This document shows, piece by piece, positions 1,155-25,053 of a stretch of DNA of 28,053 bases (positions are counted from its first letter, which is position 1; each line of letters starts with the position of its first letter). The translations under genes and the position numbers were made by a program. The notes under the pieces were generated by a model. That model saw only the letters and a list, made by a program, of their open reading frames with translations. It ran no database searches and was not told the DNA's origin. Location: assembly GCA_002404055.1 (NCBI GenBank), contig DHIZ01000246.1:16474-44526 (forward strand). The letters run 5' to 3'. Origin of the DNA: Chloroflexi bacterium UBA4733. GTDB lineage: Bacteria > Chloroflexota > UBA4733.

Positions 1155-1589
1155 TCAGGGTTGATCTGGGCCGAGGACCGTCAGGCCGTACTGGGAGAAA
1201 TGGTGGTCGAACGTGAAAGCGGCGCCGATCGCCGCGCGTTCCATCACGACAAAGCTCGCGGCATCGGTCAGCGAGAAGTCTTTGTCGTCGTAGCGGTAGA
1301 TGAGCTCGCGCGCTCGCTCAACGTCGCCGGGCGTCACCCAGAGCACCGTGGTGAAACTCTGCGCCATGTCGCGCAAGAAGGCAGTCGCCATCGCATGAGA
1401 CAGCCGGGTGAGGAGCAAGGCGTGGGTTTCCGCGAGGACCAGATCGGTCGTAAACAGCCGCGCCCGCTGGCGAATCAGCCGTTCCTGGATTGCCCGAGCC
1501 TCGGCATGCCGCTGGTCGCGCCGGTCGAGCAACGCGAAGTACGCTGAGCTATCCGTGAAGACCCGCCGGATCGCCTCCCGCCGACTCAT
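1155..1589 (-). CDS. vapC: PIN-domain ribonuclease toxin (VapC-type)
   Basis: Likely Mg-dependent endoribonuclease toxin that cuts RNA when its antitoxin is lost. The 144-aa protein keeps the four acidic positions of the PIN active site: Asp in FTDSSAYF near the N-terminus, Glu in LAETHALL near the middle, Asp in FSLTDAAS, and Asp in FTFDHHF near the C-terminus. The length fits the family. Its ATG overlaps the stop of the upstream antitoxin gene by 4 bp, which implies translational coupling, as is usual for such pairs. Unlike the antitoxin systems near 12 kb, this pair appears intact. The RNA target is unknown. Confidence 0.9.
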   Translation of the reverse strand: MSRREAIRRVFTDSSAYFALLDRRDQRHAEARAIQERLIRQRARLFTTDLVLAETHALLLTRLSHAMATAFLRDMAQSFTTVLWVTPGDVERARELIYRYDDKDFSLTDAASFVVMERAAIGAAFTFDHHFSQYGLTVLGPDQP

Positions 1590-1879
1590 TCGTGGCGATC
1601 GGCGTACGCTGCCGCGAGACAGGCGTGCTTATTGGCTGAGACATCGCCCGGACCCGCCGACGCGCCGACGCCCACGAGCCGCCAGAGCGGATCATCAGCG
1701 CCCGTCGGCCGCCCTCTGGGGCCGCGCGACCTTGCCGAGCGCTTGACCGGACGGACAATTGCCACGTCCTCGTGGTCGCGCCGCAGCACGCACGGCGCAT
1801 TGTCGGCCCGCATTTCCTCGACGAGGCGAAGCAGGTCGGGGCTGTCGCCGATGTCGACGGGTTTCGCTGCTCTCGCCAT
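1586..1879 (-). CDS. vapB: VapB/Phd-like antitoxin of the PIN toxin
   Basis: Small 97-aa protein directly upstream of, and overlapping by 4 bp, the PIN toxin gene. Its N-terminal half (about 1-50) has the look of a short DNA-binding antitoxin fold (DSPDLLRLVEEM, then DHEDVAIVRPV). Its C-terminal tail (DDPLWRLVGVG through DVSANKHACLAAAYAD) resembles the toxin-wrapping tail seen in Chloroflexota and actinobacterial antitoxins paired with PIN proteins. The ATG at 1879 has a GGGAGG ribosome site 9 nt upstream. Such antitoxins usually repress their own operon. Assignment rests on position and tail pattern, because the DNA-binding fold is not certain. Confidence 0.75.
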   Translation of the reverse strand: MARAAKPVDIGDSPDLLRLVEEMRADNAPCVLRRDHEDVAIVRPVKRSARSRGPRGRPTGADDPLWRLVGVGASAGPGDVSANKHACLAAAYADRHE

Positions 1880-1907
1880 CCGGCTCGCCTCCCTCGAACG
1901 TCACCAC

Positions 1908-1913
1908 AGTATA
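1908..1913 (-). promoter_or_regulatory. Candidate -10 box of the toxin-antitoxin operon
   Basis: On the minus strand this reads TATACT, 28 nt before the antitoxin ATG, giving a leader of about 20 nt. I see no good -35 box at the right spacing, so it would be a weak or activated promoter. Confidence 0.35.
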
Positions 1914-2015
1914 GCCGCACTCACTCGGTTATCGGGAGGCACACGGACTGCCGGACTGCCTGTCGCTACGGTCGCCTGCGCATGAACTGCCCATGCGGCC
2001 CGCTTCACCTTCGCC

Positions 2016-2177
2016 TTAGGCGCTCCCATCCGGTACCTGCGCGACGAGTTCCATGACGCCCCCGGTAACGAGCAAGTCGTACCGCTGCTTCTCCGCTTCG
2101 TCAAGTTCCTGGTTAAGCGCGTCGACGTCCGCCGCCTTCGCCGTCCCCGTCTCGATGATCGCGGCGCGGTAGCTCAT
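2016..2177 (-). CDS. Small conserved-looking hypothetical protein
   Basis: A 53-aa reading frame starting MSYRAAIIETG and continuing with an acidic helix (KAADVDALNQELDEAEKQ) and a short strand-like end (YDLLVTGG). This resembles the start of small DUF4177-like proteins that begin with a beta strand, a helix and a second strand, but I cannot assign a family. There is no strong ribosome binding site before the ATG, and the frame is open further upstream with poor composition. It lies alone between the toxin-antitoxin operon and rhaEW. It may be a shortened remnant. Function unknown. Confidence 0.35.
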   Translation of the reverse strand: MSYRAAIIETGTAKAADVDALNQELDEAEKQRYDLLVTGGVMELVAQVPDGSA

Positions 2178-2381
2178 CGTCGTGGCGCGAAAAAAAACCG
2201 AGGGCCGCTGCGGGGTTCGCGGCGCCATTGGCGAAAAAGCCGTGCTGATCCACCTCGCGCAACCCGGCGGCATCGCTGCGCTGGCTGGCATGCCCCCCGT
2301 TCGCCCGCCAGTCTATTCGCTGTTAAGCTATGAGGTCCAGCGACGGGCTGCTGAAGGCGCACCGGCCGGTGAGGGAGAACG

Positions 2382-4442
2382 ATGGCTGCGAACCTGTGGA
2401 ACGACGCTGAAGCCGCAGGCCTGCGTGGCCTGCCGGCGCTGGTCTACCGCTCCAACCTGCTGGGGCAGGACCGCACCCTGGTCAACATCTACGGCGGCAA
2501 CACGTCGGTGAAGGCGACCGAGCAAGATCACGTGGGGCGCAGCGTCGAGGTGCTCTGGGTGAAGGGCAGCGGCTCCGACCTGGCGACGATCACCGCCGCC
2601 GGCTTCGCCGGGCTCAAGCTGGAGGAAGTGCTGCCCCTCTTCCAGCGGGAGGCAATGAGCGACGAGGAGATGGTGGCGTACCTGGATCGCACCAGCTTCG
2701 AGCCTGGCCGTCCCCGCCAGTCGATCGAGACCTTGCTGCACGCCTTTGTCCCGGCGCAGCACGTCGATCACACCCACCCCGACACCATTATCGCCCTCGC
2801 CTGCGCGCCCGACGGTGAGCGCATCATGCGCGACATCTATGGGCCGCGTGCCGCCTGGGTGCCTTACAGCCGCCCCGGCTTCACGTTGGCGCTGCAGATC
2901 GGCGCCGCAGTCCGCAATAACCCGGCGCTGGAGTGCGTGGTAATGGGCAAGCACGGCCTCGTCACCTGGGGCGCGACATCGCAGCAATGTTATGAAAATA
3001 CGCTGCGCATCATCGGTGAAGCCGAGGCCTACATCGCTGCCCGCGTCGGCGCAGATCCCTTTGGCGCGCAGCGCGTCGCGCCCCTGGCGCCGGAGGAACG
3101 GGCGGCGCTCTGCGCGCGTCTCTTGCCCGTGATCCGCGGCGCCGTCAGTACGGAACGGCGCGCTATCCTCTGCTTCGACGATGCGCCGGACGTGCTGGAG
3201 TTCGTCGGCAGCGCGGAAGGGAAGGCGCTGTCGCAGGCCGGCGCCGCCTGCCCGGATCATCTCGTCCATACCAAGCGCCTGCCGCTTTGGCTGGACTGGC
3301 AGCCGAGCGACGGCGCGGACGCCCTGCTGGAGCAGGCGCGCAGCGGTATCGCCGCCTACGCCGAGGCCTACCAGGCCTACTTCGCGGCCCATCGTGGCCC
3401 GACCGACCGGTCTTTCCCCGTAGCGCCGCGTGTCATCCTCATTCCTAGCCTGGGCATGGTGACGACCGGACCCGAGGCGCAGGGGGCCGATGTGACGCGC
3501 CAGCTCTACCATCGCGCTATCGCCGTGATGCAGGGAGCGCGCGCCCTCGGCGGCTTTACGTCGCTGTCGCCCGCCGAGTCGTTTGCCATCGAGTACTGGC
3601 CCCTGGAGCTCTACAAGCTGTCGCTCAAGCCCGCGCCGCGGGCGTTACACGGGCGGGTCGCCCTCGTCACCGGCGCCGCCTCCGGCATCGGCCGCGCCAT
3701 CGCCCGTCGGCTGGCCGCCGACGGCGCCCACGTGGTGATCGCCGACCTCAACCTCAGCGGCGCAGAGGCCGTGGCCGACGAACTGCTGCAGCGCTTCGGG
3801 CTGGGCAGGGGGCTCGCCCTCGCCTGCGACGTCACCTCCGAAGAGGCCGTCGCCGACGCCTTCCGCCGAACCGTACTGGCCCACGGCGGTGTCGATATTG
3901 TCGTCAACAACGCCGGCATTGCCACCAGCGCGCCGATCGAAGAGACGACGTTGGCGCTGTGGAACCGGAACCAGGCGGTCCTCGCCACCGGCTACTTCCT
4001 GGTGGCGCGCGAGGCTTTCCGCCTCTGCCGCGCGCAGGGTATCGGCGGCAGTATCATCTTCATCGCCTCCAAGAACGCCATTGCCGCCGGCCGCAACGCC
4101 TCGGCCTATAGCGCCGCCAAGGCAGCGGAACTGCATCTAGCGCGCTGCCTGGCGGAAGAGGGCGGCTCTGCCGGCATCCGCGTCAACTCCGTGTTGCCGG
4201 ATGCCGTCCTTTCCGGGTCGAGCATCTGGGATGGCCGCTGGCGGGCTGAACGTGCCGCCACCTACGGCATCGCCCCGGAAGAACTGGAAGCCTACTACCG
4301 CGCTCGCACCACGCTGCGTGTCAACGTCTTCCCAGAGGACATCGCCGAGGCGGTCTGCTTCTTCGCCACCGACAGCGCCAGCAAGACCACCGGCGGCGTG
4401 CTGACGGTGGACGGCGGCGTGCCGACGGCATACGTGCGCTAG
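2382..4442 (+). CDS. rhaEW: Bifunctional rhamnulose-1-phosphate aldolase / lactaldehyde dehydrogenase
   Basis: Expected to cleave L-rhamnulose-1-phosphate into dihydroxyacetone phosphate and L-lactaldehyde, then oxidise the lactaldehyde with NAD, completing cytoplasmic rhamnose breakdown. Residues about 15-400 form a class II (zinc) aldolase/adducin domain with metal-ligand histidines in HVDHTHPD (127-134) and GKHG (His191). Residues about 420-686 form a short-chain dehydrogenase with the TGAASGIG cofactor loop (about 430), NNAG, and the catalytic Tyr576 and Lys580 (YSAAK). The 686-aa length matches the known RhaE-RhaW fusions found in Bacillus and Chloroflexota. A GAGGGAG ribosome site precedes the ATG. 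The next gene follows after 23 bp in the same direction. The kinase that would feed it is at 13.6 kb, separated by the accessory region. Confidence 0.93.
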   Translation: MAANLWNDAEAAGLRGLPALVYRSNLLGQDRTLVNIYGGNTSVKATEQDHVGRSVEVLWVKGSGSDLATITAAGFAGLKLEEVLPLFQREAMSDEEMVAYLDRTSFEPGRPRQSIETLLHAFVPAQHVDHTHPDTIIALACAPDGERIMRDIYGPRAAWVPYSRPGFTLALQIGAAVRNNPALECVVMGKHGLVTWGATSQQCYENTLRIIGEAEAYIAARVGADPFGAQRVAPLAPEERAALCARLLPVIRGAVSTERRAILCFDDAPDVLEFVGSAEGKALSQAGAACPDHLVHTKRLPLWLDWQPSDGADALLEQARSGIAAYAEAYQAYFAAHRGPTDRSFPVAPRVILIPSLGMVTTGPEAQGADVTRQLYHRAIAVMQGARALGGFTSLSPAESFAIEYWPLELYKLSLKPAPRALHGRVALVTGAASGIGRAIARRLAADGAHVVIADLNLSGAEAVADELLQRFGLGRGLALACDVTSEEAVADAFRRTVLAHGGVDIVVNNAGIATSAPIEETTLALWNRNQAVLATGYFLVAREAFRLCRAQGIGGSIIFIASKNAIAAGRNASAYSAAKAAELHLARCLAEEGGSAGIRVNSVLPDAVLSGSSIWDGRWRAERAATYGIAPEELEAYYRARTTLRVNVFPEDIAEAVCFFATDSASKTTGGVLTVDGGVPTAYVR

Positions 4443-4465: not shown

Positions 4466-5506
4466 ATGGGGACCGCCCTCCGAGCAGGCATCATCGGGTC
4501 AGGCAACACCGGGCGCCTGCACGCCCAGGGCTACCTACACGCCGGCGCCACGGTGGCCTGTTGCGCCGGCCAGGGGGGCGAGCGGGCCCGCGCCCTGGCG
4601 GCGACCTACGGCTGCGACTGGACCGACAACTACCGGCGCTTGCTGGAGCGCAGCGACATCGACGTGGTATCCGTCTGCACACCGACGTGGACGCACCAGG
4701 AGATTGCGCTCGCTGTCCTGGCCGCCGGTAAGCACATCCTCTGCGAAAAGCCGATCACGCAAGGACCGGCAGCCTGCGCGCCGTTAGTGCGCATGGTGGC
4801 ATCAACGGGCCTGACCTTTCAAGCCGGCTATATGAAGTGGCACCACCCGCTCACCCAGCGCCTGGTCGAACTCGTCGCTCAGATACAACCCCTACAAACA
4901 GCTCGCGTGCGCACCTATTACCCTGTGCCGCTGGAACGCTGGGAGCGCCTCCAACTAACGCGCGACCGCCAGGGCGGTGGCGCCCTGATGCTCTCCGGTA
5001 GCCACATTCTGGCGGTGCAATGCCTGCTCCTCGGCTATCCGCTGCAGGCCATGCCGATGATGAACTGGCAGCCCACGTTGACCGGCATCGACCGCTACAC
5101 GGCCGCGCTCTTCCGCCAGCCGGACGGCGTCATCGTCAGCTTTGAGGCCGGCTGGCTACCGCTGACCAACGTCGGCATCGATCACACCGGTTGGGAAGAA
5201 ATAATCGAACTGAACGGCGCAGGCGGCCGCCTGGAAATCCACTACCCCTGGTGGAACCGCACGGAAACGAGCGCCGCCCGCCTGCTCCTCCATTCCAACG
5301 CCGACGGTCAAACCCACGAGTTCCACGCCACCCCCGCCAGCCAGTTCGACGCCGAAGTCGCCGCCTTCGTGCGGGCGGTGGAGGGGGGACAGCCGCCGAC
5401 GCCGTCGGTCATCGACGCCTATCGCATCCACGCGCTAATCGACCAACTCTACGCCGCTGGTACACGCGAGCAGGCGGTGACGTTCGATTACGGTCTGCCG
5501 GGGTAG
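4466..5506 (+). CDS. Gfo/Idh/MocA-family sugar oxidoreductase
   Basis: NAD(P)-dependent oxidoreductase probably acting on a sugar or sugar acid. The N-terminal Rossmann motif is IIGSGNTGRLHA (about residues 9-20), followed by the VSVCTPTWTH strand and the family signature CEKPIT that carries the conserved lysine (about residue 95). The C-terminal alpha/beta domain runs to the end at 346 aa, a normal length. The ATG has an AGGAGA site 7 nt upstream and lies 23 bp after rhaEW, so the two are probably cotranscribed. A piece of the last 25 or so codons is repeated about 1 kb downstream as a remnant. The substrate is not known; a link to rhamnose or another deoxysugar is inferred from the neighbour. 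Confidence 0.88.
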   Translation: MGTALRAGIIGSGNTGRLHAQGYLHAGATVACCAGQGGERARALAATYGCDWTDNYRRLLERSDIDVVSVCTPTWTHQEIALAVLAAGKHILCEKPITQGPAACAPLVRMVASTGLTFQAGYMKWHHPLTQRLVELVAQIQPLQTARVRTYYPVPLERWERLQLTRDRQGGGALMLSGSHILAVQCLLLGYPLQAMPMMNWQPTLTGIDRYTAALFRQPDGVIVSFEAGWLPLTNVGIDHTGWEEIIELNGAGGRLEIHYPWWNRTETSAARLLLHSNADGQTHEFHATPASQFDAEVAAFVRAVEGGQPPTPSVIDAYRIHALIDQLYAAGTREQAVTFDYGLPG

Positions 5507-5622: not shown

Positions 5623-5660
5623 GGTTGGCAGCGTATCATCACCGTGAGAGGGGGATCACT

Positions 5661-5883
5661 ATGGCCGTGATGCCGCGGGAGCAGCGTGCTCGCGCCGAAG
5701 AATTGGACCCCGAGGAAGCGCGGGCGATCTTCGATCAGTTGGCTCATCGGGAGTTGTCCATAAGCGGCGCAGAGTTCATCAGGCGCAGAGTTCATCAGGC
5801 GCTGGGACGCCGGCGAATATCACGGCAAGGCCGACCAGCCACGTGTGGCCCGCGTGGCCATGCTCCTACCCTTTGGCCGCTAG
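5661..5883 (+). pseudogene. Frameshifted copy of the 68-aa conserved small protein
   Basis: The first 39 or so codons match the intact gene at 11458 closely (start MAV-PREQRA, core EELDPEEARAIFDQLAHREL). A perfect 16-bp tandem duplication (5766-5781 and 5782-5797) then shifts the frame, so the normal ending (RWDAGEY to LLPFGR) is read only in another frame. Removing one 16-bp unit restores a 207-bp gene ending at the TAG at 5881-5883, the same length as its twin. The ATG has a strong GAGAGGGGG ribosome site and the promoter above. In its current frame the ORF runs on to 5945 with unrelated residues. Function of the family is unknown. Confidence 0.85.
5766..5797. repeat. 16-bp perfect tandem duplication causing a frameshift
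   Basis: Two identical adjacent copies of GGCGCAGAGTTCATCA. The intact paralog near 11.57 kb has a single copy of the corresponding sequence, so this is an added unit and not a loss in the twin. Confidence 0.95.
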
Positions 5884-5953
5884 GACGATTCACGAGGCGG
5901 GAAGTCGCTTCGCCGATGTCCTTTGTCTCGCCGTGTCCTGCATAACGAACGAC

Positions 5954-6430
5954 GTGCCACAGGTCCAACGGCACGGACAGCCGGGAGAACTGCGCGCAGC
6001 GACTTTGGCACGCGCCCGCCCCCTCCCATTGAAGGGCGGCGAATTCCAGTTTGCCATGTCCATCCAGTACCGCGTCCACGAAGAGCAGCGGGCAAGCGGC
6101 TGGATTGTCGAGCAGGCGTCGTATGCCTATGCCCTGTTCGACCGCGCCGGACGGGAGCTTCTGGTCTACCACTGGCACCCTGAATGGGCAGGCCTCAGAC
6201 CGGAGGCCCATCTGCATCTGGCCGCGGCACTCCTGGAGGCGGATTACAAACGGACCTTCGCGCAGCAGCACCTACCAACCGGGCGCGTTGGCATGGAGGA
6301 TGTGCTTGGCATGCTGATTCAGGAGTTGGGAGTGCCGCCGAATCGCAACGATTGGCACGACACGTTGGCATTAACGAAGCTTCAGATGAACGAGATTTGC
6401 ACCCAAAACGTCGCCGAATCCACGCGCTAA
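5954..6430 (+). CDS. Conserved hypothetical protein, start uncertain, C-terminus fused to debris
   Basis: I do not recognise a named family. The readable core from about 6025 (GGEFQFAMSIQYRVHEE) continues through ASYAYALFDRAGRELL, VYHWHP, a histidine-containing AHLHLAAAL segment, then HLPTGRVGMEDVLGMLIQ and DWHDTLAL. This pattern of a beta-rich start, HWHP/HLHL histidines and a GRV-EDVL helix looks like a real conserved unit. The GTG at 5954 and the ATG at 6056 are possible starts, neither with a good ribosome site. The last codons and the stop (around 6415-6430) lie inside DNA derived from a Gfo/Idh gene read in a different frame, so the native end has probably been replaced. Confidence 0.5.
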   Translation: MPQVQRHGQPGELRAATLARARPLPLKGGEFQFAMSIQYRVHEEQRASGWIVEQASYAYALFDRAGRELLVYHWHPEWAGLRPEAHLHLAAALLEADYKRTFAQQHLPTGRVGMEDVLGMLIQELGVPPNRNDWHDTLALTKLQMNEICTQNVAESTR

Positions 6431-6507
6431 TCGACCAACGCTACGCCGCCGGTGAAAGCGAGCATCCGTTGACCGTCGATAACCACCCTGCCCGTTCGGA
6501 GCGATAG
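6415..6507 (+). pseudogene. Remnant of a Gfo/Idh oxidoreductase C-terminus
   Basis: The reading RIHALIDQRYAAG closely matches RIHALIDQLYAAG at the end of the oxidoreductase at 4466-5506. At DNA level 21 of 21 bases agree (6418-6438 versus 5426-5446), and the match then fades over the next 45 bases. No N-terminal part is present. It overlaps the end of the preceding hypothetical gene in another frame. It is the tail of a duplicated or deleted gene. Confidence 0.75.
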
Positions 6508-7821: not shown

Positions 7822-7935
7822 TCATACGGCCCACCCTCCACCGTTCGCTCGCGCCAGCACCGGGAACAGGTCGCCTTCTAGCGGCGCACCGGGTGCCAGA
7901 TGCAAGGGATCGAACTTTCGGTACCGCCCGCACGT
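7822..7935 (-). pseudogene. Remnant of a phytanoyl-CoA dioxygenase C-terminus
   Basis: On the minus strand this reads PGAPLEGDLFPVLARANG, nearly identical to the last residues of the intact dioxygenase at 12745-13533 (PGAPLEGDLFPVLARVNG), and the DNA agrees closely over about 60 bases. Just upstream a weaker match (RYRKFDPLHLA) fades out before the sigma-factor gene begins on the other strand. The catalytic part of the gene is missing. The rest of 7684-7993 holds nothing else that I can support. Confidence 0.72.
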
Positions 7936-7993
7936 AGGATAGCTGTACGGCCGCGTCGCGTGATCGCTGATCGTGGCATAAAGGGATGTGGGT

Positions 7994-10654
7994 ATGGACC
8001 AGTCCGAACATGCCGCGATCACAGCGCTCCAACAAGGGGACATCGGCGGGCTGGAGGCGCTGGTGCGACGCCACCAGGTGCGGGCCTTGCGTACTGCCTA
8101 CGCCATCACCGGCGACCGCATGGCCGCCGAGGACGCCGTGGCAGACGCTTTCCTGGCCGCCTATGAGCGCATCGCCCAGTTCGATTCGGGCCGCACCTTT
8201 GCCTCCTGGTTCTTTCGCATCGTGGCCAACCGTGCGGTGGACGTGACCCGCAAAGCCAGGCCGGTGACAATGGGCGCCGACGCCGAATCCATCCTGGCCG
8301 AACTCGCGCACCCTGCGCCCGGACCGGAGGAAGCAGCGATGCATCGCGAGAGGCACGATCTGGTGGTGCTGGCGATCGGGGGACTGCCGCCAGCACAGCG
8401 GGCGGTGCTGGTCCAGCGCTACTACCTGGACTGGGAGGAAGCGGCCATCGCCCGCGCTACCGGTAGCCCGCTGGGCACCGTCAAGTCACGGCTCTACGCC
8501 GCCAAGAAGAAGCTGCGGAAGTCTCTCGCTGAGTTCCATGCAAGCGTCTCCACCGGCCGGTCGGAAGAGCGGCGAGCGTTGCGGCACGTGCTCGCCACAT
8601 ACCTGGTAGCAACGGTTCCCAGCGACAGCAGCGTCTGGCCGGCCGTGCGCCGCCGCCTACCCCTCCTCCTGCGCGCCGTTCCCCATCCCCGGGGCATCGC
8701 GACCGGCCCGCTCGCTCCAGGCGAGCAAGCGCCGCCCGCCCCGGACTTCTCGGCCCCACCCCCCGAAGGAACCTACCTGCTCATGGGGCCGCCACGCTCA
8801 GGAATGCCCACTACACTCGAGGAAGCGGAGCGTCTCGCCGGCTTCCCCGTCCTCGTCTTTGGGGAGCCGACCTGGCAGCTCGTCGGTGTCGAGTTCTGCC
8901 CGCCGGAGCCGCAACGGGCGACCGCCTTCGATCCCCCGTGCTACGCCTGGCAGATGCCGGCGGTGGTGCTGCGCTACCAGGCGTCCGGTGTCACGGCGAC
9001 CGTCGTGGAACACCGCAATGTGTACCCGGTGCAGGCGCTGCGCTTCGTCCAGCTCGAGGACGCGCCGTTCGGGGAGACGTTGCTGAAGGTCGAGCAGCTC
9101 GAGGACGCCGCCTATCTCGTCCGCTGCCGGCGCGACGATGGCCTGGTGCAGGCGGTGCAGTTTGCGACGGTCACCACCCGCGTCTTCGTCGAGTTCGAGC
9201 CAGCCACCACCTGGAGCACGGCCGGCGCCTTCGCCTGCGCTCTCCAGCCGACCGAGAGGAGTATGGCCATAGAGCTATCTCGTCGTACCTTCCTGAGTAC
9301 CGCCAGCGGGTTGGCGGTGGTGACCGTCTCCGGTTGCATCGCGCCCAGGTTGCCGCTACCCGCCGGCAGCGGCGCCGCTGTCCCGCCGACTCGCGTCGGC
9401 GGCGTGCGACCCGGCGGCGCCTACACCACCACCATCACGCGGCTCACGGACGTGCTTCCCCCGGCGGTTGCTGCCCTGGCAGCGGCCAAAACACCGGTGG
9501 ATCCGCATATCATCTGGCTGACCCCGCCCGAAGCCACCCCGGTACCAGAGGGACAACAACCGACTGCCGGCGTCGTGAACACGCTCGCCCAAACGCTCAC
9601 GTCCGCCAATGTGGCGTTACGTCTGGAGTTGTTGGTGCTGAGCAGCAGCCTGGTCGAGCAGGCATCCGGCGTCTACGCGAGCATCGGACCGGACGCCCAG
9701 GTCCGGCAACTGGCCGGTCGCCTGCTCATTCGCCCCTTGGACGAGTTCGTGCGTTCGACCGCACACATCAGGCTCGACGACTACTTTCCCGGCGCGCTGG
9801 ACGCCGTGCGCGTGGACGGCAAGCTCTACGGCTTGCCGCTCAGCGTCATGCCCACCATGCTGCTCTACGACAAGGAACTGTTGGAATCTGCCGGTGTTGC
9901 CATCCCGATCGGCGGCTGGAACTGGCAACAGTTGCTGGATGCCGGCCTCAAGGTGACCAAACCGCCGTTGCAGTATGCACTGGCGCCAGCCTCGCTCAAC
10001 GTGGGCATGTTCGTCGAGCAGAACGGCGGGGCCATCCTCAGCGCGGACGGGACTCGGTGCCTGTTGGACCAGCCGGCGGCCGTGGAGGCGGCCGGATTCT
10101 ACGCTGGGCTGTTCCAGCCGCGGACCATCGTCGCCCCGCCAGGGACCGTCAACTTGTCGTTCGATCACGGCATGCTCTCCGTCGGCGGCGCGCGGATCGC
10201 CTTGCTGCCGAACTGGCTCAGCGCCAGCATCCCCGTGGAACAAGGGACGCCGCGGCGCCTTTACCTGGCCGAGCCGTTTCACGGCAAGGTGCCATACTCC
10301 AGCCTGGGGCTGCAAGATGCCGTGGTCATGACGACCGCAACGACTGATCCCGCCAGCAGCTTCCTGGTGATGGCGGCGCTAGCGAGCCAACTGCAACAGC
10401 AACTCTTCGTCCCGGCGACACTGTCCACAGCCAAAGTGGTCGACCCTGGGCAGCAGGGACTGTCGCTCGATGGCGAGGAGAAGACGGCGATCCTGCGGAC
10501 GGCCCGCTACGCCGCCTACGCTGTCTCGCCCGGCCCGGACGTCATCGCCCTGCTCCGGTCGCTGGATGCGGCGCTGCAAGGCGGGCAGGACCCGTTTGTT
10601 GCTTGCCAAGCGGCGACGACAGCGATCAATGCGGTGCTGTCCGGGCACGGGTGA
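7994..10654 (+). CDS. ECF sigma factor joined in frame to a Tat lipoprotein solute-binding protein
   Basis: One open frame of 886 codons. Residues 1-175 are an ECF-type sigma-70 factor: region 2 (ALVRRHQVRALRTAYAITGD, then DAVADAFLAAYERI and TFASWFFRIVANRAVD) and region 4 (LPPAQRAVLVQRYYLDW, SPLGTVKSRLYAAKKKLR). Residues about 265-410 form a DUF4367-like domain (LVGVEF, VVEHRN, FVEFEP). Without any stop, a twin-arginine signal and lipobox follow (SRRTFLS, VSGC), then a family 1 ABC solute-binding fold. An RNA polymerase subunit and an exported lipoprotein should not share one chain, so either the second part is translated separately from the Met at 9263, or a sequencing or real frameshift hides a stop (a TAG lies in the +1 frame just after that Met). 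The ATG at 7994 is preceded by AAAGGG; a GTG at 7988 is also possible. Confidence 0.8.
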   Translation: MDQSEHAAITALQQGDIGGLEALVRRHQVRALRTAYAITGDRMAAEDAVADAFLAAYERIAQFDSGRTFASWFFRIVANRAVDVTRKARPVTMGADAESILAELAHPAPGPEEAAMHRERHDLVVLAIGGLPPAQRAVLVQRYYLDWEEAAIARATGSPLGTVKSRLYAAKKKLRKSLAEFHASVSTGRSEERRALRHVLATYLVATVPSDSSVWPAVRRRLPLLLRAVPHPRGIATGPLAPGEQAPPAPDFSAPPPEGTYLLMGPPRSGMPTTLEEAERLAGFPVLVFGEPTWQLVGVEFCPPEPQRATAFDPPCYAWQMPAVVLRYQASGVTATVVEHRNVYPVQALRFVQLEDAPFGETLLKVEQLEDAAYLVRCRRDDGLVQAVQFATVTTRVFVEFEPATTWSTAGAFACALQPTERSMAIELSRRTFLSTASGLAVVTVSGCIAPRLPLPAGSGAAVPPTRVGGVRPGGAYTTTITRLTDVLPPAVAALAAAKTPVDPHIIWLTPPEATPVPEGQQPTAGVVNTLAQTLTSANVALRLELLVLSSSLVEQASGVYASIGPDAQVRQLAGRLLIRPLDEFVRSTAHIRLDDYFPGALDAVRVDGKLYGLPLSVMPTMLLYDKELLESAGVAIPIGGWNWQQLLDAGLKVTKPPLQYALAPASLNVGMFVEQNGGAILSADGTRCLLDQPAAVEAAGFYAGLFQPRTIVAPPGTVNLSFDHGMLSVGGARIALLPNWLSASIPVEQGTPRRLYLAEPFHGKVPYSSLGLQDAVVMTTATTDPASSFLVMAALASQLQQQLFVPATLSTAKVVDPGQQGLSLDGEEKTAILRTARYAAYAVSPGPDVIALLRSLDAALQGGQDPFVACQAATTAINAVLSGHG
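9263..10654 (+). CDS. Tat-exported lipoprotein, ABC sugar-type solute-binding protein (internal start)
   Basis: Probable separate protein of 463 aa from the ATG at 9263, which has GAGAGGAG immediately upstream (close spacing) inside the sigma-factor frame. The N-terminus has the twin-arginine motif SRRTFLS, a hydrophobic stretch, and a lipobox ending VSGC, so it should be exported folded and lipid-anchored. The body has family 1 extracellular solute-binding signatures: DEFVRSTAHIRLDDYFPGAL, VDGKLYGLPLSVMPTMLLYD, KELLESAGV, then GWNWQQLL. It would capture a sugar or related solute for an ABC transporter, but no permease or ATPase gene is adjacent. Whether it is made alone or only as part of the sigma fusion is not settled by the sequence. 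Confidence 0.72.
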   Translation: MAIELSRRTFLSTASGLAVVTVSGCIAPRLPLPAGSGAAVPPTRVGGVRPGGAYTTTITRLTDVLPPAVAALAAAKTPVDPHIIWLTPPEATPVPEGQQPTAGVVNTLAQTLTSANVALRLELLVLSSSLVEQASGVYASIGPDAQVRQLAGRLLIRPLDEFVRSTAHIRLDDYFPGALDAVRVDGKLYGLPLSVMPTMLLYDKELLESAGVAIPIGGWNWQQLLDAGLKVTKPPLQYALAPASLNVGMFVEQNGGAILSADGTRCLLDQPAAVEAAGFYAGLFQPRTIVAPPGTVNLSFDHGMLSVGGARIALLPNWLSASIPVEQGTPRRLYLAEPFHGKVPYSSLGLQDAVVMTTATTDPASSFLVMAALASQLQQQLFVPATLSTAKVVDPGQQGLSLDGEEKTAILRTARYAAYAVSPGPDVIALLRSLDAALQGGQDPFVACQAATTAINAVLSGHG

Positions 10655-10742: not shown

Positions 10743-11201
10743 ATGGTGGATCCATCTACGACGCGGTATGGACCCTGGCGGACTCGTCCGCCGCAGACTC
10801 GCCAGACGCTCTGGGTGTGGACGGGCCTGAGCCTCGCGTGCCTAACGGTCGCGTCGGTTATGGTCGGACGGACCTGGTTCGGGGTCGGCGTGACAGGCGA
10901 ACCGGCGGTAGCGCGCTGGTGGATCGTGACCCGGGCATGGTTACCGCTCATCCTCGCGCTGTGGCCGTTGGGCACGCGAGCCTTGTGGGCCTCCGGGCGC
11001 GATCACCTGGGCCGGCTCTATGCGGCGGTCGTGGGGCCGATCGGACTGGGCCTGTCGGTGGTCGTCCTTGGTTACTTGATCCCCGCACCGGCCGCGTTGA
11101 TGGCCATGGTGCTATTCCTACTCAATGACGGCGTCTACTTCCTCGCCTGGCTGCTCTTCTGGCCCGGCTTTGATCGACAGTTCCCCACCTGGCTCAGATA
11201 A
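10743..11201 (+). CDS. Small multi-pass membrane protein, function unknown
   Basis: A 152-aa protein with about four hydrophobic segments: around residues 22-44 (LWVWTGLSLACLTVASVMVG), 58-77 (WWIVTRAWLPLILALWPLGT), 92-112 (YAAVVGPIGLGLSVVVLGYL) and 115-142 (ALMAMVLFLLNDGVYFLAWLL). The N-terminus is basic and probably cytoplasmic. AGAAGGGGG precedes the ATG. It begins 88 bp after the solute-binding protein on the same strand and may be cotranscribed. It does not look like an ABC permease, because there is no EAA-type loop and it is too short. No family recognised. Confidence 0.6.
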   Translation: MVDPSTTRYGPWRTRPPQTRQTLWVWTGLSLACLTVASVMVGRTWFGVGVTGEPAVARWWIVTRAWLPLILALWPLGTRALWASGRDHLGRLYAAVVGPIGLGLSVVVLGYLIPAPAALMAMVLFLLNDGVYFLAWLLFWPGFDRQFPTWLR

Positions 11202-11420: not shown

Positions 11421-11457
11421 GGGTGGTATCGTCTCATCAACGCGAGAGGGGACCGCC

Positions 11458-11664
11458 ATGGCCGTACTGCCACGTGAGCAACGTGCCTGCGCCGAAGAGT
11501 TGGATCCCGAGGAAGCGCGGGCCATCTTCGATCAATTGGCTCATCGGGAGCTGTCCATCAGCGGCGCGGAGTTCATTAGGCGCTGGGACGCCGGCGAATA
11601 CCGGGGCAAGGCCGACCAGCCACATGTGGCCCGCGTGGCAATGCTGCTGCCCTTTGGCCGCTAG
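11458..11664 (+). CDS. Conserved 68-aa small protein (intact copy)
   Basis: Short soluble protein: a charged helical first half (PREQRACAEELDPEEARAIFDQLAHREL) leads into SGAEFIRRWDAGEYRG and ends with VARVAMLLPFGR. The second half resembles a small conserved motif (SGEEFLRRWDAGEY then AMLLPF) that I recall in Chloroflexota hypotheticals, sometimes near toxin-antitoxin genes. The role is unknown. An in-frame ATG exists further upstream (11350), but the one chosen has GAGAGGGG 6 nt before it and the matching promoter, and aligns with the start of the twin copy at 5661. Unlike that copy, it lacks the 16-bp duplication. Homology with the twin extends from about 70 bp before the start to about 35 bp past the stop. 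Confidence 0.75.
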   Translation: MAVLPREQRACAEELDPEEARAIFDQLAHRELSISGAEFIRRWDAGEYRGKADQPHVARVAMLLPFGR

Positions 11665-11770
11665 AACGATTCACGAGGCGGGCAGCCGCTTCGCCGACAC
11701 CCCTCTGTACCGCCGAACCGTCAACCTAACCAGGCTGTCCAGCACGAATCCGTCCCCGAATCGCAGGGAA

Positions 11771-12744: not shown

Positions 12745-13533
12745 CTAACCATTCACCCGCGCCAGCACCGGGAACAGATCACCTTCCAGCGGCGCTCCTG
12801 GCATTAACTCCAGGGAATCGGTCGTGACGTGCTTCCTGCCGCTGTAGTGGATCGTGTCCGGCAGATAGTTGATGATGAAACCCTCACGCGGCTGGTCGGT
12901 GAGGTTGGGGCCGGCGTAGTGCAGCGTCAGCGAGTTGTGGAAGGTGCAACTGCCCGCCGTCACGGGGACGGTCGCCGCCTGCAACTGGTCGCGCTTGTCA
13001 TCGGGCACCAGCAGGCGCACGCCATCCAGCGATTCCATGGACTCGCGTGGCAGCGAAGCTGTGGCCAGGCGCCCCCAGCGCTGGGAGCCGGGGAGGAAGC
13101 TCATGCAGCCCATCTCGACGGGCACATCGACCAACGCCAGCCAGCAGGTGAGGGGTCCCGCCTCCAGCATCGGCCAGACGGTGAGGTCCTGGTGCCAGGA
13201 GGAGGGACGGTCGCCCGGCATCTTGATGATCTCCTGGTCGTGCCAGATGCGTACCTGCGAGCTGCGCGTGAGCTGGCGGGCGATACCTGCCAGCGTCGGG
13301 TTGAAGACGAAGCTGCGAATGGCGTCGCCCATCGTCCACACATTGACGTGTTGCGTGTACTGCGCCCCCTTGTTGAAGAAGTAGCCCTCGCCGGGCCGCT
13401 CGGTGACCTCCGCCAACGCCGCCCGAAAGGCCGCCACCTCCTCCAGGGTCAGCACGTTTTCGAACTTCACATAGCCGTTCGTTTGATAGAAGGCAATCTG
13501 CTCCTCAGTCGCTGTCACTGGTTGGGCTGTCAT
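12745..13533 (-). CDS. Phytanoyl-CoA dioxygenase (PhyH) family Fe(II)/2-oxoglutarate oxygenase
   Basis: Likely a non-haem iron, 2-oxoglutarate-dependent hydroxylase in the cytoplasm. The jelly-roll fold shows the HxD pair of the iron triad in SWHQDLTVWP (about residue 120), the distal histidine in FHNSLTLHYAGPN, and the 2-oxoglutarate-binding arginine in REGFIINY. The 262-aa length is typical. I chose the ATG at 13533 because an AGAGGA site lies about 9 nt upstream; in-frame starts at 13542 and 13554 are less well placed. It is divergent from rhaB with an 84-bp shared region. PhyH genes often lie in Chloroflexota and planctomycete sugar loci with Gfo/Idh and TIM-barrel enzymes, but the substrate is unknown. 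Its last codons are echoed as a remnant at 7.8 kb. Confidence 0.9.
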   Translation of the reverse strand: MTAQPVTATEEQIAFYQTNGYVKFENVLTLEEVAAFRAALAEVTERPGEGYFFNKGAQYTQHVNVWTMGDAIRSFVFNPTLAGIARQLTRSSQVRIWHDQEIIKMPGDRPSSWHQDLTVWPMLEAGPLTCWLALVDVPVEMGCMSFLPGSQRWGRLATASLPRESMESLDGVRLLVPDDKRDQLQAATVPVTAGSCTFHNSLTLHYAGPNLTDQPREGFIINYLPDTIHYSGRKHVTTDSLELMPGAPLEGDLFPVLARVNG

Positions 13534-13553
13534 TGCTCGCATTCCTCTCGCCA

Positions 13554-13582
13554 ATCGCCACGGTCGCCCCAGAGAGTATAGT
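13554..13582. promoter_or_regulatory. Candidate divergent promoter between phyH and rhaB
   Basis: For rhaB, TCGCCA, 17 nt and TATAGT (13577-13582) lie 35 nt before the ATG. On the other strand the overlapping bases 13575-13580 read TATACT, a -10 for phyH, though I see no good -35 there. One short AGTATAGT could therefore serve both directions. Confidence 0.4.
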
Positions 13583-13617: not shown

Positions 13618-15117
13618 ATGGCAGCGAGCAAGAACTTTCTGGCGGTGGATCTGGGGGCTTCCAGCGGAAGGGTCCTGCTGGGTCGCTGGGACGGCAACCG
13701 CTTCGGCTTGCAGGAACTGCACCGCTTTGCCAACGGCGGCGTTGTCGTCCTCGGCCACCTCCATTGGGATGTACTGCGCCTCTGGCAGGAACTGCTGGCC
13801 GGCCTTGCTCGCTACGCCGCCGCCTACGACGCGCCGCTGGCCGGCATCGGTATCGATAGCTGGGCTGTCGACTATGGCCTGCTGGATGGAAAAGGCCGCT
13901 TGCTCGGCAATCCCTACCATTACCGCGACCAGCGTACCGACGGCGTGGCGGCGCAGGTGTTTGCGCGGCTGCCCTGGACCGAGGTCTTTGCGCGCACCGG
14001 CATCCAACAGTTGCCTTTCAACACGCTCTACCAGTTAGCCAGCATGCAGGGTAGCGGTGATCCGCAACTCGCTGCGGCCGAGACGCTCCTGCTGATGCCC
14101 GACCTGCTCGGTTACTGGCTCACCGGCCGCAAGGTAGCGGAATACACAAACGCGACCACCACGCAGATGCTCGACTGCCGGACCCGGACATGGGCGACCG
14201 ACATGCTTGCTCAGCTTGGGCTACCCGCCGGCCTCCTGCCACCCCTCGTCGAGGCCGGGTCGCAGCTCGGCGCCCTGCTGCCGGAGGTCGCCGCCGCCGC
14301 CGGGCTGAGCAGCGGTACCCCGATATTCGCTCCCGGCACCCACGACACGGCCAGCGCCGTTGCCGCCATACCGGGTCTGGACGACCGCAGCGCCTACATC
14401 AGCAGCGGTACCTGGAGCCTGGTCGGTCTGGAGGTACGCGCACCCATCGTCAACGATGCAGCACGGGCGAGCAACGTCACCAACGAAGGAGGCGTCTACG
14501 GCACGATCCGGCTGCTGAAGAACGTCACCGGCCTCTGGCTGGTGCAGGAGTGCCAACGCCGCTGGCAGCAAGACGGTCAGCAGTACCCCTGGGAAGAGCT
14601 ACTGGCCCTGGCCGGGATGGCTCCGTCCTTGCGCAGCCTGATCGATCCCGATGCGCCAGCGTTTCTGCACCCGACCGACATGCCGGCTGCCATCCGCGCC
14701 TCTTGCCGGCAACACGGCGAACATGTCCCAGACGATGTTGGTATGATCGTCCGTTGCTGCCTGGAGAGCATCGCCTTGAAATATCGAATGGTGCTGGAAG
14801 TATTGGAACGACTGGCCGGCCGCCAGGTCGAGACAATCCGCATTGTCGGCGGAGGAAGCCAGAATCAACTGCTCTGCCAGTTCACCGCCGACGCCTGCGG
14901 CCGGCCTGTTGTCGCAGGCCCGGTAGAAGCCACCGCCCTCGGCAACATCCTGGTCCAGGCCATCACCGCCGGCCACCTGCCGGACCTCGCCGCCGGTCGC
15001 GGGGCGATCGCCGCGTCGGTCGAAGTACAACGCTACGAGCCGAATCTGGATGGGGCGGTGCGGTGGGATGACGCCTTTGCGCGCATCACTGAACGAATCA
15101 GCATAGGAAGCGAATGA
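13618..15117 (+). CDS. rhaB: Rhamnulokinase (FGGY carbohydrate kinase family)
   Basis: Expected to phosphorylate L-rhamnulose with ATP to L-rhamnulose-1-phosphate, the substrate of RhaEW at 2.4 kb. The 499-aa protein has both FGGY halves. The N-terminal ATPase fold shows DLGASSGRVLLGRW at residue 10 and GIGIDSWAVDYGLLD around 78. Then come NPYHYRDQRTDG and a TNATTTQMLD segment typical of RhaB. The C-terminal half starts near PGTHDTASAV and has ISSGTWSLVG and the nucleotide-binding IVGGGSQNQLL. A GGGGAGGAG site precedes the ATG. It is divergent from the PhyH gene, followed by a strong hairpin and a TIM-barrel isomerase gene on the same strand. Confidence 0.92.
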   Translation: MAASKNFLAVDLGASSGRVLLGRWDGNRFGLQELHRFANGGVVVLGHLHWDVLRLWQELLAGLARYAAAYDAPLAGIGIDSWAVDYGLLDGKGRLLGNPYHYRDQRTDGVAAQVFARLPWTEVFARTGIQQLPFNTLYQLASMQGSGDPQLAAAETLLLMPDLLGYWLTGRKVAEYTNATTTQMLDCRTRTWATDMLAQLGLPAGLLPPLVEAGSQLGALLPEVAAAAGLSSGTPIFAPGTHDTASAVAAIPGLDDRSAYISSGTWSLVGLEVRAPIVNDAARASNVTNEGGVYGTIRLLKNVTGLWLVQECQRRWQQDGQQYPWEELLALAGMAPSLRSLIDPDAPAFLHPTDMPAAIRASCRQHGEHVPDDVGMIVRCCLESIALKYRMVLEVLERLAGRQVETIRIVGGGSQNQLLCQFTADACGRPVVAGPVEATALGNILVQAITAGHLPDLAAGRGAIAASVEVQRYEPNLDGAVRWDDAFARITERISIGSE

Positions 15118-18883: not shown

Positions 18884-19705
18884 ATGAAACCTGGCTGCAC
18901 GATGTATAGCTTCAACCGGCAGGCGCGCGCCGGAGAAATCGGCATCGAGGGCTTCCTCGACTACTGCGGCGAACTTGGCCTAGACGGCGTCGATCTCCTC
19001 TCCTACTATTGGACCGACCAGGCCGCTGAGATGGCAAAGGCGCCGGAGTGGCTGCAACGCAACCGGCTGACGCTGGCCGCCTACGCTGTCGGCAACAACT
19101 TCGTCCAAGCCGAGGCATCGGCGCGGGCAACACAAATGCAGATGGTGCGTGACGGCATCGATACGGCAGCGAGGCTCGGCGCGCCGGTGCTGCGCGTCTT
19201 TGGCGGATCCCGGCCCAGGGCCGGCGCCATGTCTCCGGCTGAAGCCCTGGACCTCGCCATCGACAACCTTGGCGCCAGCGCCGCCTACGCGCAAAGCCAG
19301 GGCGTGGTACTCGGCATTGAGAACCACGGCGGCCTGCCGGGGACCGCAGCGGAGGTGCGTCAGGTGCTGGAAGCTGTCAATTCACCAGCATTGCGCCTCA
19401 TTCTGGATGTCGGTAACTTCGTCGGTGTGGGTGACGACCCCGTCGCTGCCACGCGCTCCCTCGCACCCTATGTGACCCACGTCCACCTCAAGGACCTTGG
19501 CCCGACGCCGACGGAGGGGAATAGCCGTCGCGAAAACGTGCCGCTCGGCGACGGCACGATCGACCTTGCCCAGATCTTCCGCATCCTCAAGGAAAGCCAC
19601 TACGCCGGCTACCTGTCAATCGAATACGAAGGCAAGGCTGACCCGACCGAAGCAGTCCGCCGCAGCGCTGCCCACGTGCGAAAGTTGCTGGGGGAGCTGA
19701 GCTGA
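18884..19705 (+). CDS. Xylose isomerase-like TIM-barrel sugar isomerase/epimerase (second copy)
   Basis: A 273-aa TIM-barrel protein of the sugar phosphate isomerase/epimerase group. Likely metal ligands are Glu in VLGIENHGG (about residue 146), Asp in LILDVGNF (about 173), His in HVHLKDLG, and Glu in SIEYEGKA near the end. GCTMYSFNRQAR at the start is typical of inositol or sugar-acid catabolic members. A GGAGA site lies about 6 nt before the ATG. The gene is convergent with a Gfo/Idh oxidoreductase, with a large palindromic repeat between them. The two probably act on related sugars, as these families often do, but the substrate is unknown. Confidence 0.88.
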   Translation: MKPGCTMYSFNRQARAGEIGIEGFLDYCGELGLDGVDLLSYYWTDQAAEMAKAPEWLQRNRLTLAAYAVGNNFVQAEASARATQMQMVRDGIDTAARLGAPVLRVFGGSRPRAGAMSPAEALDLAIDNLGASAAYAQSQGVVLGIENHGGLPGTAAEVRQVLEAVNSPALRLILDVGNFVGVGDDPVAATRSLAPYVTHVHLKDLGPTPTEGNSRRENVPLGDGTIDLAQIFRILKESHYAGYLSIEYEGKADPTEAVRRSAAHVRKLLGELS

Positions 19706-23994: not shown

Positions 23995-25053
23995 ATGATG
24001 TCCGACATTAGACCGCTCACCGTGACGGTGAATCGCGAAACCAGACAGCTTGATCGCCCAATGGCGCTGCCGGAAGTGCTGGCCACGCTGAGTGTTCCGG
24101 TGACACGCATTGCCATCGCCCTCAATGGCGAGATCATCCCCCGCGACCGCTGGCCACAGACCATCCTGCGCGATGGCGATAGCGTCGATGTGGTGCGAGC
24201 CGTCTCGGGTGGTTCGGGAGCGGCCGACGATCCGTTGCTGATCGCCGGGCAGCAATTCGACTCCCGGCTCTTCCTGGGTACCGGCCGCTTCCCGTCGCCA
24301 CAGGTGCTGCGTCAGGCGCTGGCGGCGGCGGCGACCGAGTTAGTGACGGTATCCATTCGGGCCCTTGGTCTGGACGGCCAAAACGCCGACGGCGGCCTGC
24401 TGGACGAGCTGGAGACCAGCAGTTACCGCCTACTCCCCAACACCGCTGGCGCGACGACGGTGCGCCAGGCCGTCTACATGGCCCATCTGGCCCGCGAGGT
24501 GACGGGGACCAACTGGATCAAACTGGAAGTGATCGGCGACGAGCGATCGCTCTGGCCCGACCCGGCGGGAACGGTCGAGGCCTGCCGGCAACTGGTAAGC
24601 GATGGCTTTGTGGTGCTGCCCTACACCAGCCTCGATCTGGTCACGGCCCTCCGGCTGGAAGAGACGGGAGCGGCGGCAGTCATGCCGATGGCCGCCATGA
24701 TCGGCTCCGGCCAGGGCATGCAAGACATCGCCGGCCTGCGCCGCATCCTGGAGCGCTTGACCGTACCCGTGGTGGTGGATGCCGGCATCGGCACGCCTTC
24801 GGACGCCACGATCGCCATGGAATGCGGCGCGGCCGCCTGCATGGTGAACACAGCGATCTCCCGCGCCCAGGATCCGGTACGCATGGCAACTGCCATGCGG
24901 CTGGCCGTCTGCGCCGGCCGGCTCGCCTACCGCGCCGGCCGCATGCCCCGACTGGACTACGCGGTTCCGTCAAGTCCGTCTGACGGCATCGTGGCCGCGC
25001 CGGCCAGGCTTCAGCCCGCCGAGCCTGCTACTGCCGCCGTCGCCGGCCATTGA
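23995..25053 (+). CDS. thiSG: ThiS-ThiG fusion: sulfur carrier plus thiazole synthase
   Basis: ThiG makes the thiazole phosphate of thiamin from 1-deoxyxylulose-5-phosphate, dehydroglycine and sulfur donated by ThiS. Residues about 8-72 are a ThiS ubiquitin-like domain (RIAIALNGEIIPRDRW, LRDGDSVDVVRAVSGG) ending in Gly-Gly. Residues about 80-335 are ThiG, with FDSRLFLGTGRFPS, the Schiff-base lysine in WIKLEVIGD, VMPMAAMIGSGQG, and VVDAGIGTPSDA. Here the Gly-Gly is followed by SG and the ThiG domain, not by a chain end, which is odd for thiocarboxylate chemistry. The start has two ATG codons in a row, with AGGGGAG before them. It overlaps thiO by 4 bp and is led by a TPP riboswitch. Confidence 0.95.
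   Translation: MMSDIRPLTVTVNRETRQLDRPMALPEVLATLSVPVTRIAIALNGEIIPRDRWPQTILRDGDSVDVVRAVSGGSGAADDPLLIAGQQFDSRLFLGTGRFPSPQVLRQALAAAATELVTVSIRALGLDGQNADGGLLDELETSSYRLLPNTAGATTVRQAVYMAHLAREVTGTNWIKLEVIGDERSLWPDPAGTVEACRQLVSDGFVVLPYTSLDLVTALRLEETGAAAVMPMAAMIGSGQGMQDIAGLRRILERLTVPVVVDAGIGTPSDATIAMECGAAACMVNTAISRAQDPVRMATAMRLAVCAGRLAYRAGRMPRLDYAVPSSPSDGIVAAPARLQPAEPATAAVAGH

Follow-up and report, generated by a model that had tools for sequence, protein, structure and literature searches.

A candidate membrane-tethered ECF sigma factor joined to a solute-binding module in one reading frame of Chloroflexi bacterium UBA4733

Main finding

A stretch of 28,053 nucleotides from Chloroflexi bacterium UBA4733 (assembly GCA_002404055.1, contig DHIZ01000246.1), referred to below as the window, contains a single open reading frame (ORF) of 886 codons that begins as an extracytoplasmic function (ECF) sigma factor and ends as a family 1 extracellular solute-binding protein (SBP). 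The fused frame is conserved in two further sequences. Between its ends lie a motif like that of the partner proteins encoded beside related, unfused sigma factors and an internal twin-arginine translocation (Tat) type segment with a lipobox, and no other strong hydrophobic stretch was found in the middle of the chain. On balance the frame is read as encoding, in a single chain, an ECF sigma factor that is tethered to the membrane and has an SBP as its sensor, a variant of the ECF52/IutY architecture; this reading is held with moderate confidence, and within it the translation of the long chain, its topology, inhibition in cis, proteolytic release and a sugar-type ligand are inferred.

Domain organization of the fused frame

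No internal stop was found among the 886 codons, and the stop codon ends at 10654. A GTG lies upstream in the same frame at 7988; the ATG at 7994 was taken as the start and matches the N-termini of the two fused relatives, P0002 and P0003 (the window's own protein is denoted P0001). Both sigma-70 regions at the N-terminus scored above the Pfam cut-offs, and TIGR02937 was matched at 83.9 bits (cut-off 42.9), as in ECF sigma factors. The C-terminal module was assigned to the family 1 SBPs from matches to SBP_bac_1 (E 6.9e-12; 46.4 bits, cut-off 26; residues 569-707) and SBP_bac_8 (E 8e-9; 36.1 bits, cut-off 27), both of which exceed their cut-offs, and sugar-binding proteins were present among 25 PDB matches of this module. 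The frame and the co-occurrence of these Pfam domains in one chain confirm the preliminary description, which had reported one ORF running from a sigma factor into an exported-type SBP without a stop.

In the gap of about 250 residues between the sigma and SBP domains, no Pfam family was matched at E 10 except for a weak TAT_signal. An AF2 model of residues 185-448 (mean pLDDT 60.8), the fold of which was compared using VIA-align, suggests a beta-rich domain weakly similar to RseB-C/MucB, and hydropathy gave no transmembrane stretch within it. This middle part had been called DUF4367-like; no match to Pfam PF14285 was obtained at E 10 in any of the three fusions, a search in which the HMMER filters may drop weak matches. 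The sigma regions, the Tat/lipobox segment and the SBP of the earlier domain list stand, but the list had omitted the anti-sigma-like piece at residues 189-225. Coordinates are collected in Table 1.

Table 1. Features of the fused frame and of neighboring genes, in window coordinates
Feature	Coordinates	Strand	Residues	Basis or remark
Single ORF, ECF sigma / anti-sigma-like / beta domain / Tat-lipobox / SBP	7994..10654	+	886 aa	ATG 7994
Sigma-70 region 2	8060..8260	+	23-89	Pfam PF04542 (Sigma70_r2), 4.8e-13
Sigma-70 region 4	8363..8515	+	124-174	Pfam PF08281 (Sigma70_r4_2), 5.6e-12
Anti-sigma-like helix pair (in P0002 LATYLEEAVPADSSVWPAVQRRL)	8558..8668	+	189-225	Partner HMM, hhalign, two predicted helices
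Beta-rich middle domain, weakly RseB-C/MucB-like	8774..9244	+	~261-417	AF2 model, VIA-align, hydropathy
Shine-Dalgarno (SD)-like GAGAGGAG	9254..9261	+		1 nt before ATG 9263, 7 nt before codon 9269
Internal ATG, possible old or weak start of SBP module	9263..9265	+	M424	Aligns with ATG 1506 of L052
Internal Tat motif, h-region and lipobox, LSRRTFLSTASGLAVVTVSGC	9275..9337	+	428-448	Alignment, KD19, weak Pfam TAT_signal
Family 1 extracellular solute-binding module	9338..10651	+	449-886	Pfam SBP_bac_1/8
Predicted membrane protein (by eye), possibly co-transcribed	10743..11201	+	152 aa	Strong SD-like sequence; directly downstream of fusion
RhaD-type bifunctional aldolase/dehydrogenase	2382-4442			Above cut-off
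Rhamnulokinase-like kinase	13618-15117			484.4 bits, below cut-off 527.95
Xylose isomerase-like TIM barrel	18884-19705			

Conservation of the fusion

A search with the whole chain returned four proteins, two of which carry the same fusion. P0002 (884 aa, 60% identical to P0001) is represented by three member sequences on two contigs, the longest of 91,562 bases; P0003 (770 aa, 3'-truncated, 55-56% identical) comes from an NCBI record labelled partial, Chloroflexota bacterium. Compared as protein sequences, all three share domain order and joint, and alignment columns 1-448, up to the lipobox, are free of gaps. The preliminary description had proposed that close relatives be searched for the fusion: it recurs in P0002 and P0003, and neither has a stop between the modules. 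Since two proteins from other sources carry the same order and joint, the fusion is not a sequencing slip.

Searches for split forms were sized for standalone proteins, with about 8000 candidates scored in each. The sigma and middle parts alone gave 17 matches, none a close standalone form (the best was 46% identical over 50% of the query), and the SBP alone gave five (P0003, P0023 and P0024, both fragments, and the distant P0025 and P0026), among which there was no intact split form. Beyond the three fusions, C-terminal pieces occur in P0023, P0024 and genome G125 (locus L051), and the fusion is rare in the data at hand. The piece in L051 (4882-5526), from a relative of the fusion's SBP, ends at a contig edge; close by on the same strand, at 1462-3015, is a separate SBP whose start is Tat-like.

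Anti-sigma-like region and unfused loci

Fourteen loci at which the sigma gene is not fused (L002, L017, L019, L020, L024-L030 and L060-L062; not every close one) were examined. Their sigma proteins share 41-53% identity with one of the three fusions, and in all 14 the sigma gene ends in a stop and is followed by a partner gene that overlaps it or begins no more than about 130 nt downstream. A DxW motif, for example LHELAEQEIPADLDLWPAIRTQV, occurs near the start of 13 partners, with ADVM in its place in L062. A hydrophobic stretch (KD19 1.62-2.64) was found within 150 residues past the motif in all 12 partners measured, L062 included; by eye, the partners of L019 and L024 resemble the other 12. 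The outer parts are DUF4179- or DUF4367-like (below cut-off) or of other kinds. From these traits the unfused partners look like membrane anti-sigma factors, which is the role we infer for them.

A hidden Markov model (HMM) was built from 12 unfused partners, and 900 shuffled proteins, the best of which scored 9.9 bits, served as background. The match was significant for P0002 (21.4 bits, E 6.5e-6), modest for P0001 (13.6 bits, E 0.0017) and not significant for P0003. Using hhalign, 31 residues were aligned at the motif with the L060 partner (P 1.6e-4, probability 51%). Because residues ~189-225 thus resemble the N-terminus of the unfused partners, the chain probably consists of sigma, anti-sigma and SBP parts joined. 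It has neither the gene-separating stop nor the hydrophobic stretch past the motif of the unfused pairs: the maximum KD19 after the motif in the fusions is 0.76-1.19, and no strong hydrophobic stretch is present there. At L060 the partner begins 3 nt past the sigma stop and shares the frame of the sigma gene; loss of a single stop would therefore yield such a fusion, a history that may apply here.

Internal Tat/lipobox segment

LSRRTFLSTASGLAVVTVSGC is taken to be a twin-arginine motif followed by a hydrophobic stretch and a lipobox, according to general motif rules. By eye, SRRTFL...VSGC or IAGC is present in all three fusions, giving each the twin arginines, h-region and lipobox cysteine. 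Identical columns make up 18 of the 21 in this segment, against 45% overall; 15 of them are consecutive, the longest such stretch in the alignment, and one of that length arose in 14 of 5000 column shuffles. The comparison covers a small set of three sequences, and the Tat consensus itself accounts for part of this conservation. Pfam TAT_signal was matched weakly and below cut-off (E 0.13-0.23; 0.23 for the window's piece). The h-region has the highest KD19 of each fusion chain (1.45-1.58), and between the inhibitor and the outer domain it alone nears the hydropathy of a membrane segment. With the helix of the unfused partners missing past the motif, the strongest candidate for a membrane anchor is the Tat/lipobox stretch. 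The segment begins at residue 428 of the long frame and so lacks the N-terminal position of a Tat lipoprotein signal, which it would have if translation restarted at 9263.

Proposed mechanism

In the favored arrangement, residues 1-180 would act as a sigma factor held inactive in cis by residues ~189-225, which would have their origin in a former anti-sigma partner's N-terminal domain. The beta-rich domain would sit on the cytoplasmic side, and the Tat/lipobox segment (428-448) would anchor the chain with its N-terminus inside and the C-terminal SBP outside. Tat signals are described as inserting as a hairpin, and covalent attachment of the twin-arginine end to TatC did not stop export (PMC7317946). 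The sigma factor may then be freed by ligand binding, or by cleavage at the lipobox cysteine followed by proteolysis of the leftover stub. A sugar ligand is a fair guess, because the neighboring genes are of rhamnose type and sugar-binding proteins are among the PDB matches. In a more specific and rather unlikely version, lipoprotein maturation itself would gate transcription: after Tat insertion, signal peptidase II would cut before C448, and the sigma/anti-sigma stub would be freed by an intramembrane protease under control of the SBP, so that whether one nutrient-binding lipoprotein is exported, or has bound its ligand, would directly decide the release of sigma from the same chain. Should the long chain be produced, a single molecule would link nutrient binding with protein export and transcription, and Tat would be seen to handle a large folded domain ahead of its signal.

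Several observations weigh against such a tethered chain. P0003 scored only 9.0 bits (E 0.05) against the partner HMM and, being below the best shuffle, is not significant taken alone; of the two partners compared using hhalign, that of L025 gave no alignment at the motif and a weak one elsewhere (2.8%). The h-region is modestly hydrophobic, barely exceeding a stretch of the sigma domain (1.17-1.39). It is unusual for a Tat signal to lie behind 427 residues, and the lipobox invites a cleavage that would part the sensor from the sigma factor. None of the matches listed ran from sigma through to SBP when whole genomes were searched, 100 with P0002, 41 with P0001 and 371 with P0003, in overlapping sets in which few candidates per genome were scored with P0002 and P0003. 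In the actinobacterial Rieske protein Sco2149, as far as the available part of the source describes it, an internal Tat signal likewise puts a C-terminal domain outside, but after two Sec-inserted helices (PMC5449189); that part mentions neither a lipobox nor a sigma factor.

Alternative explanations

The joining of two adjacent genes by an indel, as an artefact of assembly or sequencing, is highly improbable and already largely refuted by P0002 and P0003, which come from other sources and have the identical joint. It could draw on P0023 (JGI), which is 99% identical to P0001 but lacks everything before residue 528 and ends differently at its C-terminus. The tail of P0023 corresponds, however, to another reading frame of the window, whereas P0002 shares the window's own ending; the frameshift is therefore probably in P0023. 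The GC content at third codon positions is also even through the joint, at 0.74-0.94 in 17 of 17 segments of 50 codons (7994-10543). Decay of the fusion, with little or no expression and no sensor function, is improbable, if less so: it would fit the duplicated gene pieces in the flanks and a Pfam scan in which none of 20 window ORFs came out as an ATP-binding cassette (ABC) permease, whereas the frame has stayed open over 886 codons here and likewise in two relatives at 55-60% identity, free of gaps up to the lipobox and with invariant columns in every module.

The alternative given the most weight, though doubtful, is that one frame yields two products, the long chain and an ordinary SBP lipoprotein initiated at the internal Met of ATG 9263 (residue 424, corrected from 426 in the preliminary description). 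A Met occurs within two codons of this place in all three fusions, and the pairing energy of GAGAGGAG with the anti-SD, -8.6 kcal/mol, falls inside the span given by several other window starts (-6.4 to -9.8). A standalone SBP paralogue of G125, L052 (37% identity over its length), has at ATG 1506 a Met that matches ATG 9263, with an SD-like AAGGA 8 nt before it; an alternative start, TTG 1467, lies upstream in the same frame and begins the longest ORF. Taken from ATG 1506, L052 probably begins at this Met, and for that reason the SBP module was probably once a separate gene. Against a restart, GAGAGGAG ends 1 nt before ATG 9263. The Met of P0002 and P0003 lies two codons later, at the equivalent of codon 9269, which would give a spacing of 7 but is ATA in the window. 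By eye, the gap between SD and start is ~4-7 nt at 2382, 4466, 7994, 18884, 23995 and 26201, and no SD precedes the starts at 25050 and 27192. Restart at 9263 is thus possible but doubtful, and since all three sequences retain the fused frame, a second product would not do away with the fusion. Of the two options set out earlier, restart or a Tat tether, the tether gains support, since three divergent sequences retain the fusion, their conservation is highest in the Tat segment and the anti-sigma-like piece explains part of the middle.

Comparison with known systems

Sigma factors fused to an inhibitor and a sensor are known but few. In the portions of the literature at hand, ECF52, ECF48, ECF53 and IutY are described as sigma/anti-sigma/membrane chains, with proteolytic release shown for IutY and expected for the other three (PMC8999054, PMC5826349). 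The tethered chain proposed here resembles ECF52 (SCO4117), ECF48 and ECF53 of Actinobacteria, which as described there combine sigma, a C-terminal inhibitory part and a membrane segment in one chain, ECF52 with an outer carbohydrate-binding domain as well (PMC8999054, PMC5826349). As described, these carry a zinc-finger anti-sigma domain and an ordinary transmembrane helix, in contrast to the W-motif helices, candidate Tat/lipobox anchor and whole SBP of the fusion; they are actinobacterial, whereas the source of the fusion is probably Chloroflexota. No zf-HC2 was found, either in the whole chain at E 0.001 or in residues 185-448 at E 10. IutY (ECF243) of Pseudomonas putida is likewise a natural sigma/anti-sigma fusion, with no SBP mentioned in the relevant part of the source (PMC8999054), and its activation is reported to proceed by stepwise proteolysis that involves Prc and RseP (PMC8999054, PMC5411451).

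The earlier proposal of a new way to couple solute sensing to transcription is therefore too strong for the general plan, given ECF52, ECF53 and IutY as far as the source portion covers them (PMC8999054). What sets the proposed chain apart from them is the SBP as sensor, the internal lipoprotein-type signal as candidate anchor in place of an ordinary helix, and the lack of a zinc finger; no paper on a sigma-SBP fusion was found among the top-ranked literature matches. In another protein, P0004 (JGI, 930 aa), an anti-sigma zinc finger (zf-HC2) precedes two SBP stretches. Like the fusion it has SBP modules and an anti-sigma-type domain in one chain, but it lacks a sigma factor and its anti-sigma domain is of another type; going by its predicted domains, it is a second case in which SBP and anti-sigma parts have been joined. 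P0004 may also be a two-gene counterpart of the fusion.

Genomic neighborhood

The aldolase/dehydrogenase, kinase and TIM-barrel genes of Table 1 give the surroundings the look of a deoxysugar catabolism region. The 152-aa protein encoded directly downstream had no Pfam match. Two overlapping direct repeats, one of 135 nt (91% identity) and one of 136 nt (87%), were found between 5651-5916 and 11448-11697, on either side of the fusion gene, and hold a short ORF (MAVxPREQRA.AEELDPEEARAIFDQLAHRELSISGAEFIRR...). Just upstream of the fusion, 73 nt (7840-7912) are 77% identical to 12748-12820, the 3' end of a minus-strand ORF (12745-13554) that is hydroxylase-like by NCBIfam matches below cut-off; the upstream copy is perhaps a gene remnant. 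As another sign of local duplication, the 3' end of a Gfo/Idh/MocA gene (5423-5491) is repeated about 1 kb downstream at 6415-6483 (69 nt, 83%). At 23995-25053, ThiS and ThiG are encoded in one ORF, followed by a DAO-type flavin adenine dinucleotide (FAD) oxidoreductase, with 81% identity in G125.
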